Shown in pieces: positions 5,318-7,513 of a stretch of DNA of 7,568 bases (position 1 is its first letter; each line of letters opens with the position of its first letter). This DNA is from Sulfuricurvum sp. GTDB taxonomy: Bacteria; Campylobacterota; Campylobacteria; Campylobacterales; Sulfurimonadaceae. The position numbers were made by a program, and so were the translations under genes. The notes beneath the pieces were generated by a model. The model was not told the DNA's origin and searched no databases. It was given only the letters and a program-made list of their open reading frames with translations. Location: the NCBI GenBank assembly GCA_024635855.1, contig JAGXHZ010000016.1, positions 1 through 7,568 on the forward strand, read 5' to 3'.

Positions 5318-5361
5318 CGTCATCCCCTCTCCCGTCATCCCGTACTCGATACGGGATCCAG
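5318..5361 (+). repeat. Solitary REP-like palindrome (half-unit) plus a truncated piece
   Basis: The unit CCCGTCATCCCG...GGGATCCAG (5331-5361) has arms CCCGTA (5339-5344) and TACGGG (5350-5355) around CTCGA. A shorter CGTCATCCCC (5318-5327) precedes it and looks like a truncated copy. It lies between the outer-membrane-protein gene, whose stop is at 5366-5368, and the cvfB-like gene, so it would form a hairpin at the 3' end of the upstream minus-strand message. The same consensus recurs at 6871-7503. Confidence 0.85.
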
Positions 5362-5881: not shown

Positions 5882-6361
5882 TTATTTCAGATTGTATTTT
5901 TTTATAATTTCTTCCACCACTAGTTCATTTATGGATGATGGATATAATTCTTCCCATTTCCCATCATCTAAAAGCGTAGTAATAGATGAGCCATCACAAT
6001 CCATAAATGTTGAGGGATTAGTTTTTATTTTCATATTAACATAATCTACTGTCCATAGCATCTTTTGATACCCATAATTAGAAAAACCATTAAATTTACT
6101 GAATTTAGCCCTGCCTTTTTCGGATGCTACCCGAATGACCCACACCTTGATTATTTTATTTTTCTTATCAATTTTGATTGTTTCCAAATCAAAAAAATGT
6201 CCTGTTGTGCTTCCATCGCTGCTGGATATACCAATATCAAAAAATCGACTATCTGTAGCCCAATGTCGCTCACTAGAGTTGCATACAGGTTCATCGGCTA
6301 AAGTGCATGTTGATAGTGTTGTAGTTAAAAGTAGCATGGAGATTAGGGTGAGTTTTTTCAT
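5882..6361 (-). CDS. Exported protein resembling the surface-adhesin E family
   Basis: This 159-aa protein has a signal peptide (MKKLTLISMLLLTTTLSTCT, likely cleaved after LA at about residue 22). A lipobox-like LSTC ends at Cys19, but Thr before Cys is atypical, so I favour a soluble periplasmic or surface form. The body recalls surface-adhesin E-like proteins: a Trp near the start (RHWATDS), a FFDLETIKID block (56-65), KVWVIRV (72-78), a WTVDYVNMKIK strand pair, and a closing KWEELYPSSINE. Cys27 and Cys122 could form a disulfide. The start overlaps the stop of the ankyrin gene as ATGA and has AGGAG at 6369-6373. The family call is by pattern only; the binding partner is unknown. Confidence 0.72.
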   Translation of the reverse strand: MKKLTLISMLLLTTTLSTCTLADEPVCNSSERHWATDSRFFDIGISSSDGSTTGHFFDLETIKIDKKNKIIKVWVIRVASEKGRAKFSKFNGFSNYGYQKMLWTVDYVNMKIKTNPSTFMDCDGSSITTLLDDGKWEELYPSSINELVVEEIIKKYNLK

Positions 6362-6786
6362 TGAGAATCTCCTAAGTCACTAAATTTTTTTGCATGATTT
6401 TGTTCCAAGAAAGCGATGAGGTCTTCGATCTCTTGATGGAGGGTTGCATTAGCTGAGCGATTCTTTTCTAATTCTTTGTAGGCTGAGTCCAATGCTGTGA
6501 TTTTAGTAGTTCCAGCATCATAGACCAAATTCACATCTGCACCTTTTTCAATCAAAAGTTGTGCAATCTCTTGCTTGCCTGTTAGGATTAGAGGCGTTCC
6601 ATTTCCTTTGGTCGGTGAGCTAATCACGATAGCATTTACATCAACATCTGGAAACTTATCCATAAGATAGCGAACCTCATTCGTATCGTCTGCATAGCAC
6701 GCACGGACTAAACGAAATTCGGGTTTTTCGTAACCATCATTACCGTGAACTAGCTCAGTGATGTTTTTGTATATAATTTTAACCAT
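6358..6786 (-). CDS. Ankyrin-repeat protein
   Basis: This 142-aa, cytoplasmic-looking protein (no signal peptide) contains about three ankyrin units. The clearest is residues 62-86, NGTPLILTG then QLLIEKGADVN, close to the repeat consensus. A first, weaker unit lies at about 22-52 (LVRACYADDTNEVRYLMDKF) and a degenerate one at about 94-131. Ankyrin repeats mediate protein-protein contacts; no enzymatic domain is attached. The start has AAGAGG (6794-6799) seven bases upstream. It is the first gene of the operon and overlaps the exported-protein gene by four bases, so the binding partner may belong to this envelope system, although this protein itself seems to stay inside the cell. The promoter is at 6818-6848. 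Confidence 0.85.
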   Translation of the reverse strand: MVKIIYKNITELVHGNDGYEKPEFRLVRACYADDTNEVRYLMDKFPDVDVNAIVISSPTKGNGTPLILTGKQEIAQLLIEKGADVNLVYDAGTTKITALDSAYKELEKNRSANATLHQEIEDLIAFLEQNHAKKFSDLGDSQ

Positions 6787-6817
6787 TTCAGAGCCTCTTT
6801 TATGTTAATTTAAGTTT

Positions 6818-6848
6818 ATTTTAGCAGAGAGAGAGAGAGAGATGTCAA
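6818..6848 (-). promoter_or_regulatory. Sigma-70-type promoter with a dinucleotide tract as spacer
   Basis: On the minus strand TTGACA (6848-6843, a perfect -35) is followed by 19 bases (6842-6824) and TAAAAT (6823-6818), which is preceded by TGC as an extended -10. Seventeen of the 19 spacer bases are the (TC)8-T tract. Initiation would fall near 6811, about 25 bases before the ankyrin gene's ATG. A spacer of 19 is longer than the optimal 17; loss of one TC would make it ideal. Confidence 0.68.
6826..6842. repeat. (AG)8 dinucleotide microsatellite
   Basis: Eight uninterrupted AG units plus one A, read as (TC)8-T on the minus strand. It lies exactly between the -35 and -10 hexamers of the ankyrin operon promoter. 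Tracts of this kind change length by slipped-strand mispairing during replication. Confidence 0.95.
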
Positions 6849-6947: not shown

Positions 6948-6967
6948 CAGCAAGAATATTATTTCCC

Positions 6968-7044
6968 CGTCATCCCCGACTTGATCGGGGATCCAGTGGT
7001 TTTAAATACTGGGGATGGATTCCCAATCGAGTTGGGAATGACGG
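6968..7044. repeat. REPIN-like palindromic doublet, left flank of the GIY-YIG gene
   Basis: Two inverted halves make this 77-base unit. The left half has arms ATCCCCGA (6972-6979) and TCGGGGAT (6985-6992); the right half has ATTCCCAA (7019-7026) and TTGGGAAT (7032-7039). The halves also pair with each other at the ends (CGTCAT with ATGACG) and near the middle (CCAGT 6993-6997 with ACTGG 7008-7012). It ends 19 bases before the GIY-YIG start codon. Confidence 0.9.
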
Positions 7045-7063
7045 AATAGACTAGGAAACATAT

Positions 7064-7351
7064 ATGAAACAACCTGCTGTTTATATTTTAGCAAGTCAGC
7101 GAAATGGTACACTTTACATCGGAGTTACGTCTAATTTAGCAAAACGTATTTATGAACATAAAACTCATGTTGTCGAAGGATTTACGGATAAATACAGTGT
7201 TGATTTTCTTGTATGGTTTGAATTACATGATACGATGGAAGCTGCTATTTCACGAGAAAAAGTGCTCAAGCGATGGAATCGATTATGGAAAACAGAGTTG
7301 ATAGAGACAAAAAATCCTGAGTGGAATGATTTGTATGAAGAGATATTATGA
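7064..7351 (+). CDS. GIY-YIG nuclease-domain protein, stand-alone
   Basis: The 95-aa protein is a single GIY-YIG domain of the short bacterial (UvrC/intron-endonuclease-related, YhbQ-like) type. Expected catalytic residues line up with those of I-TevI: Tyr7 (AVYILAS), Tyr18 (LYIGVT), Arg28 and His32 (KRIYEHK), Glu65 (ISREKVLKRW) and Asn84 (NPEW). The end WNDLYEEIL is typical of this subfamily. There is no extra DNA-binding domain. The start ATG has AGGAAA at 7053-7058. It is flanked at 19 and 17 bases by two 77-base palindromic doublets in direct orientation. Substrate and function are unknown for most of this subfamily; processing of the hairpin repeats is my inference from context, not from the protein itself. 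Confidence 0.92.
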   Translation: MKQPAVYILASQRNGTLYIGVTSNLAKRIYEHKTHVVEGFTDKYSVDFLVWFELHDTMEAAISREKVLKRWNRLWKTELIETKNPEWNDLYEEIL

Positions 7352-7355
7352 AAAA

Positions 7356-7367
7356 GATGGATTCCCA
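7356..7367. repeat. Truncated repeat fragment before the right doublet
   Basis: AGATGGATTCCC AG matches the start of the right-hand half-unit (compare GGATGGATTCCC at 7013-7024) and is cut off where the next doublet begins at 7369. This suggests insertion of one unit into another or a deletion between units. Confidence 0.6.
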
Positions 7368-7368
7368 G

Positions 7369-7445
7369 CGTCATCCCCGACTTGATCGGGGATCCAGTGC
7401 TCTTAAATCTGGGAGATAGATTCCCAATCAAGTTGAGAATGACGG
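7369..7445. repeat. REPIN-like palindromic doublet, right flank of the GIY-YIG gene
   Basis: It has the same length (77 bases) and orientation as the copy at 6968-7044. The first 31 bases are identical, and I count about nine mismatches in total without gaps. Left-half arms are ATCCCCGA (7373-7380) and TCGGGGAT (7386-7393). The right half (ATTCCCAA and TTGAGAAT) has one stem mismatch, so this copy is slightly decayed. It begins 17 bases after the GIY-YIG stop codon. Confidence 0.9.
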
Positions 7446-7474
7446 GAGTGTTGTGAATGACAAAAGAAAAAGAT

Positions 7475-7503
7475 GGATCCCCGATCGAGTCGGGGATGAC
7501 GGG
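7475..7503 (-). repeat. Solitary REP-like palindrome before the SDR gene
   Basis: GGATCCCCGA...GGGGATGACGGG has arms ATCCCCGA (7477-7484) and TCGGGGAT (7490-7497) around TCGAG. It is oriented like the right-hand half-units. It ends directly against the purine-rich AAGGGA (7504-7509) that serves as ribosome-binding site of the next gene. Confidence 0.88.
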
Positions 7504-7513
7504 AAGGGAAAAA

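Follow-up and report, generated by a model that had tools for sequence, protein, structure and literature searches.

In the 7,568-nucleotide stretch of Sulfuricurvum sp. DNA analyzed here (the window), a promoter-like site whose spacer between the -35 and -10 hexamers is filled almost completely by a TC dinucleotide tract stands ahead of three genes on the minus strand. On its anatomy and by analogy with known systems, the best explanation for this arrangement, and one that we rate as narrowly probable, is a phase switch located in a promoter spacer and acting on a three-gene envelope operon. The site is known from a single metagenome contig, and the length of its tract is 8 units as assembled. 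The elements of the site and the genes that follow it are listed below in order of transcription.

6843..6848, minus strand: -35 hexamer TTGACA, a perfect consensus read from the sequence
6826..6842, minus strand: (TC)8-T dinucleotide tract, filling 17 of the 19 spacer bases
6824..6826, minus strand: TGC, putative extended -10 motif
6825-6824, minus strand: GC between the tract and the -10 hexamer
6818..6823, minus strand: -10 hexamer TAAAAT
6794..6799, minus strand: AAGAGG, 7 bases 5' of the ATG, putatively Shine-Dalgarno-like in function
6358..6786, minus strand: gene 1, ankyrin-repeat protein, 142 aa
5882..6361, minus strand: gene 2, predicted to have a protein-E-like fold and probably secreted, 159 aa
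5366..5878, minus strand: gene 3, probable outer-membrane beta-barrel, 170 aa (OMP_b-brl match below cut-off)
5331..5361, minus strand: palindromic repeat after gene 3, possible transcript end, absent from the terminator list

Read on the minus strand from 6848 to 6818, the succession of TTGACA, a 19-base spacer with (TC)8-T, and TGC-TAAAAT is exactly as the initial annotation had described it, and the gap of 31 bases from the -10 hexamer to the ATG of the ankyrin gene (6786) falls within the 25-35 bases given there. In general form the site is TTGACA-(TC)n-TGNTAAAAT, and the spacers computed for 6, 7, 8, 9 and 10 TC units are 15, 17, 19, 21 and 23 bases. The T of the TGC is itself the final base of the tract, and the extended -10 would therefore be retained at any unit number. 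A simple repeat thus lies between the -35 and -10 elements, as in switches of the hif and porA type, and its 8 full units exceed the 6 or more from which dinucleotide repeats are treated as phase-variable in Campylobacter (PMC6321876). A sigma70 promoter of the Campylobacter type would carry an extended -10 without a -35; here the perfect TTGACA is present too. A hairpin in the leader was tested and rejected (z 0.41).

In the proposed switch, a housekeeping-sigma promoter would drive an envelope operon of three genes, for the ankyrin protein, the protein-E-like secreted protein and the beta-barrel, and replication slippage within (TC)8-T would shift the -35/-10 spacer in steps of two bases. 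Seven units would give a 17-base spacer and the best expression; eight units, the 19-base spacer as assembled, would give intermediate expression aided by the extended -10; nine units, with a 21-base spacer, would give the lowest expression; and the cell population would be a mix of expression states. We infer that transcription starts at the site, that the tract varies, and that the effect has this direction. The effect on expression may be that of a dial instead of an on/off switch. Consensus promoters of E. coli with random spacers have a high output from 15 to 19 bases with a peak at 17, and the difference between 17 and 19 bases is thus perhaps small; a TG motif was inferred there to compensate for an absent -35 (PMC8695583). 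The initial annotation had called the present 19-base form weaker, which in view of the high E. coli output at 15-19 bases, and of a TGC that may carry the promoter, overstates the case. The wider proposition, that a free-living sulfur-oxidizing member of the Campylobacterota varies a protein-E-like envelope operon through dinucleotide slippage in the core promoter, in steps of 17, 19 and 21 bases, is advanced tentatively, as falling somewhat short of probable. If true, hif-type switching would also exist in an environmental chemolithotroph, whose phylum is known for tracts of the homopolymer kind. Repeat-based phase variation has been studied mainly in host-associated bacteria, and a core-promoter switch of an envelope operon in an environmental sulfur oxidizer would suggest that pressure from phages or grazers selects for phase variation too.

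The genes downstream are closely packed: gene 2 overlaps the end of gene 1 by 4 bases and gene 3 starts 3 bases after gene 2, and on account of this overlap and gap the three would form one transcript, a linkage judged from spacing alone. A database search with the gene 1 protein returned 37 matches including the query, with one named relative coming from a Campylobacterales MAG, and its alignment has 22 rows (the query and 21 relatives), in which the closest relatives (P0002-P0008) are 74-89% identical. Gene 2 begins with what we take to be a signal-peptide-like stretch. Against Adhesin_E (PF16747) it scores 14.7 bits, under the Pfam gathering cut-off of 23.7, and five of five members of Adhesin_E give a match to it with E<=1, the lowest value being 1.4e-4. 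Its structural model (five-row alignment, mean pLDDT 70.7) retrieves H. influenzae protein E at ranks 1-9 among PDB structures, twice as a chimera with PilA (E-values 1.7e-4 to 2.9e-3, TM 0.43-0.53 by query, 10-14% identity), and ranks 10-11 are P. aeruginosa muramidase with TM-scores similar to those for protein E. Gene 2 is predicted to be protein-E-like in fold only, and is kept outside the Adhesin_E family. Gene 3 matches OMP_b-brl at E 7.4e-5, which is under the cut-off, and the model of its beta-barrel was unusable (pLDDT 31). Genes 2 and 3 look like genes for secreted or outer-membrane proteins, and the run as a whole looks like an envelope operon, the usual cargo of phase variation. 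As to a conserved pairing of genes 1 and 2, the longest contigs given in their two homologue lists differ, apart from the window and one length, 983, that is common to both, which proves nothing.

Spacing between -35 and -10 hexamers in the genus was evaluated in three S. kujiense plasmids (240,098 bases, complete except for the final 1 kb of the third plasmid). Exact TTGACA..TANAAT pairs number five at 17 bases, two at 19, and none or one at every other spacing from 8 to 28, with sites at 8, 14, 22 and 23 bases; the mean over spacings 0-200 is 0.34 per spacing. Five pairs at the pre-named spacing of 17 have a Poisson probability of 3e-5, or 6e-3 if any of the 201 spacings could have been named; two of the five sites are near-duplicates, and four independent sites give 4.4e-4. 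An unrelated spacing, 188, reached four exact pairs. All five 17-base sites are intergenic and point at a gene, in an annotation that PLSDB calls incomplete, and one of them lies only 6 bases before the annotated gene start. The two 19-base sites each fall within a gene of the opposite strand, and the exact 14-base site is, like the 17-base sites, intergenic and pointing at a gene. When one mismatch is allowed the result is weaker than in the exact test: the count for spacings 16-18 is 30, where 30 permuted hexamers average 15.1 (sd 4.1, maximum 26), and the count for spacing 17 is 16, but some permuted hexamer had as many as 21 pairs at one spacing or another. The same one-mismatch test on 50 kb of one Sulfurospirillum plasmid gave no peak at 17.

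The excess of exact pairs at 17 bases indicates that -35 boxes are probably used in Sulfuricurvum with an optimum of 17 bases, although the sample is small, and with that optimum the loss of one TC would bring the spacer back to the best spacing (7 units, 17 bases; optimum from a sample of five sites). The earlier proposal that losing one TC yields a 17-base spacer is in this respect borne out by the computed spacer, and an optimum at that length is favored by the five plasmid sites. The TTGACA-17-TANAAT promoter-like sites in these plasmids (L095-L100) are unlike the pattern of C. jejuni, where a clear -35 is missing from about 89% of promoters, which show a periodic A/T pattern in its place, together with an extended -10 (PMC3656092); the spacing result suggests that Sulfuricurvum, unlike C. 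jejuni, uses -35 boxes. By analogy with C. jejuni, the -35 of the present site might likewise be of no consequence, and the alternative that fares best builds on this: the promoter would be real and would work by way of the extended -10 (TGCTAAAAT), in the manner of Campylobacter and Helicobacter promoters, so that neither the -35 nor the length of the tract has much influence and the effect of slippage is slight. Of 100 upstream regions, with that of the window among them, 11 have the motif TGNTANAAT, versus 4 on the reverse strand, and TGnTAAAAT is also found in sabA of H. pylori G27 (PMC4081817), both of which speak for this account; yet TANAAT alone is unenriched (53 versus 53), the plasmid excess at 17 bases suggests use of a -35 in the genus, and the -35 at the site is perfect. 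We consider this alternative unlikely, though not negligible.

Chance was evaluated at the level of the site and of its tract. The window has a single TTGACA-N15..21-TAAAAT; among 200 shuffled versions, 9 contained such a site at least once (mean 0.04), and with ten TC bases demanded in the spacer none of 200 shuffles matched. A dinucleotide tract of at least 17 nt was found in none of 3000 Markov-simulated windows at each of orders 1-3, the longest being 14, and by calculation 2e-3 to 7e-3 tracts of this length would be expected in a 2.57-Mb genome. Given the tract, the probability of TTGACA and TANAAT abutting it as observed is ~2e-5, calculated from motif frequencies. The longest dinucleotide run in the first 200 kb of the S. 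kujiense plasmids is 10 nt, versus 17 nt here, and a 17-nt AG run is present in 3 of 99 genomes of another phylum (that of G002), at one place each. The observation is real, and the tract lies far beyond chance. A generic promoter scan of the window did not list the site because that scan ends at 18-base spacers, and overall it performed at chance (19 found, 18.4 expected).

The same figures bear on the idea that the tract is a neutral microsatellite that expanded recently, sits in a promoter by accident and will be lost or frozen. Slippage can expand repeats anywhere, and no second carrier was found in the genomes searched, none of them close relatives; tracts of such length are, however, very rare, and the exact stop of this one at both promoter elements is hard to obtain by accident, so that we regard a neutral origin as unlikely, and more so than action through the extended -10.

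The phase-switch reading draws its analogies from several known systems. At the hif locus of H. influenzae a repeat of TA9-11 lies in the promoter region of divergent genes, with maximum expression at 10 units, and has been proposed to change the -35/-10 spacing (PMC2651432, PMC3899988, PMC11709252). The likeness to hifA/hifB is that a dinucleotide repeat sets this spacing, ahead of genes for surface structures there and of probable envelope genes here; the difference is that there the repeat is TA, the promoters are divergent, and variation and expression have been demonstrated, whereas here it is TC, with a single promoter and a putative switch. In N. meningitidis porA a poly-G tract occupies the promoter spacer and the product is an outer-membrane protein, as is probably one of the products here, but that homopolymer changes the spacer in one-base steps and the present tract in two-base steps (PMC3899988). 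Closer in phylogeny is H. pylori, in which 25 loci have T/A tracts near predicted promoters, nine of them between -35 and -10, and 15 of the 25 encode outer-membrane proteins, which are over-represented (PMC4081817). These loci share with the present site the phylum and, probably, the association with outer-membrane genes, and the sabA rheostat has in strain G27 an extended -10 of the form TGnTAAAAT, as here, but the tracts there are homopolymers and not dinucleotides, and the sabA tract lies beside the -35, outside the spacer, and acts through alignment of the DNA axis (PMC4081817). H. pylori oipA does have a CT dinucleotide repeat and an outer-membrane product; its repeat, however, is in the 5' region of the gene and acts by frameshift (PMC10564699).

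Campylobacter genomes contain 44 dinucleotide repeats of at least 6 units versus 1944 poly-G/C tracts, and 31 of the 44 are in ORFs (PMC6321876). The claim that such a switch would be unusual in Campylobacterota is thus to be narrowed: tracts of T/A in promoter spacers are known from H. pylori (PMC4081817), and it is the dinucleotide that would be unusual. Because a spacer repeat is already known in the phylum, what would be new is that the repeat is a dinucleotide, lies in the core spacer and belongs to a free-living organism. In favor of slippage, Epsilonproteobacteria are described as being without several mismatch-repair genes; against it, free-living S. denitrificans, together with W. succinogenes and A. 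butzleri, is described as having no hypervariable G:C tracts (PMC2147049). Among the matches listed in a literature search there was no paper on phase variation in Sulfuricurvum, subscription journals being outside its coverage; three listed papers that mention both name the genus a single time each.

A pattern for the full architecture, which matches the window, was found in 0 of 398 genomes of another phylum (that of G024), and there is thus no comparative support from this source. The searches of the G002 and G024 phyla were centered on a Deltaproteobacterium (L001) and a Thiotrichaceae bacterium (L079), so that close relatives of the window were not expected among the genomes scanned. For relatives of the ankyrin protein in genome contigs, none of the 80 loci covered out of 85 carried a Campylobacterota title; SecY was checked in 23 genomes from 24 of these 80 loci, of which 21 gave a match and none above 47% identity, and in the phylum of one such genome 28 of 29 gave a match, at most at 45% identity. 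None of the SecY-matched genomes looked like Campylobacterota. The ankyrin protein has 11 distant loci in viral contigs, among them L089 with a repeat-rich ankyrin protein, and a search of plasmids found no relatives.

The full-architecture pattern also matched 2 viral contigs, and its AG version 9, two of them shared; a longer AG pattern matched L110 only, inside an ORF. Eight related viral contigs (L102-L109) have promoters of the form TTGACA-(CT/GA run)-TANAAT in which the spacer is 17 bases throughout, and in L102, as in L103, two such promoters are divergent, have starts ~290 bases apart and share CACTCTCTCTCTCA. The 11-base CT/GA run in these contigs appears to be a fixed element, possibly an operator, and since it occurs in fixed 17-base spacers, a run within a spacer is no proof of slippage. 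It could be argued from these contigs, in which the run has 11 bases and the spacer exactly 17 at 10 of 10 sites, and in which CACTCTCTCTCTCA is, by eye, common to both divergent promoters of L102 and likewise of L103, that the TC run is itself a fixed-length binding site for a regulator instead of a slippage tract. The viral runs, however, leave six other bases in the spacer, whereas 17 of the 19 bases here are nothing but the repeat, so that there is no room for a distinct operator, and we judge a regulator site improbable. The site is set apart from the viral ones by its purity, its length and its near-complete filling of the spacer. Separately, a (CT)15 run with similar flanks occurs in two genomes of one phylum (L111, 521-550, and L113, 398-427), close, it seems, to the 5' end of a gene; the ORF that follows in L111 matches methyltransferase domains, and the run is a candidate for phase variation by frameshift.

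The remainder of the window places the site in its genomic setting. SecY (1636-2898) assigns the contig to Sulfuricurvum: among the matches listed, the top MAG protein of that genus shares 97% identity with it and the S. kujiense protein 93%, and one match at 96% is labelled Sulfurimonas. Beside SecY is a plus-strand run of what are presumably ribosomal-protein, methionine aminopeptidase and IF-1 genes, and the ankyrin, protein-E-like and beta-barrel genes are on the minus strand. At the start of the contig (1-305) an inverted repeat with arms at 1-150 and 156-305, 80% complementary, covers the beginning of a ribosomal protein gene and is probably an assembly fault at the contig end. That likely fault (150-nt arms, first 305 bases) could raise the suspicion that the tract length in this lone metagenome contig is itself an artefact of assembly or sequencing, but it is 6.5 kb distant and 17 nt are short enough for one read to span, which makes an artefact very improbable.

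Between the site and the far end of the window a GIY-YIG nuclease gene (7064-7351) is enclosed by two copies of a 77-nt repeat (6968-7044 and 7369-7445; 88% identical), and further palindromes occur in 6966-7504 and at 5331-5361. The core CCCCGA..TCGGGGATCCA of these repeats and palindromes is absent from the 240 kb of S. kujiense plasmids, and a related 28-mer is present in 1 of 80 genomes of another phylum; these repeats possibly form a family tied to the GIY-YIG gene.
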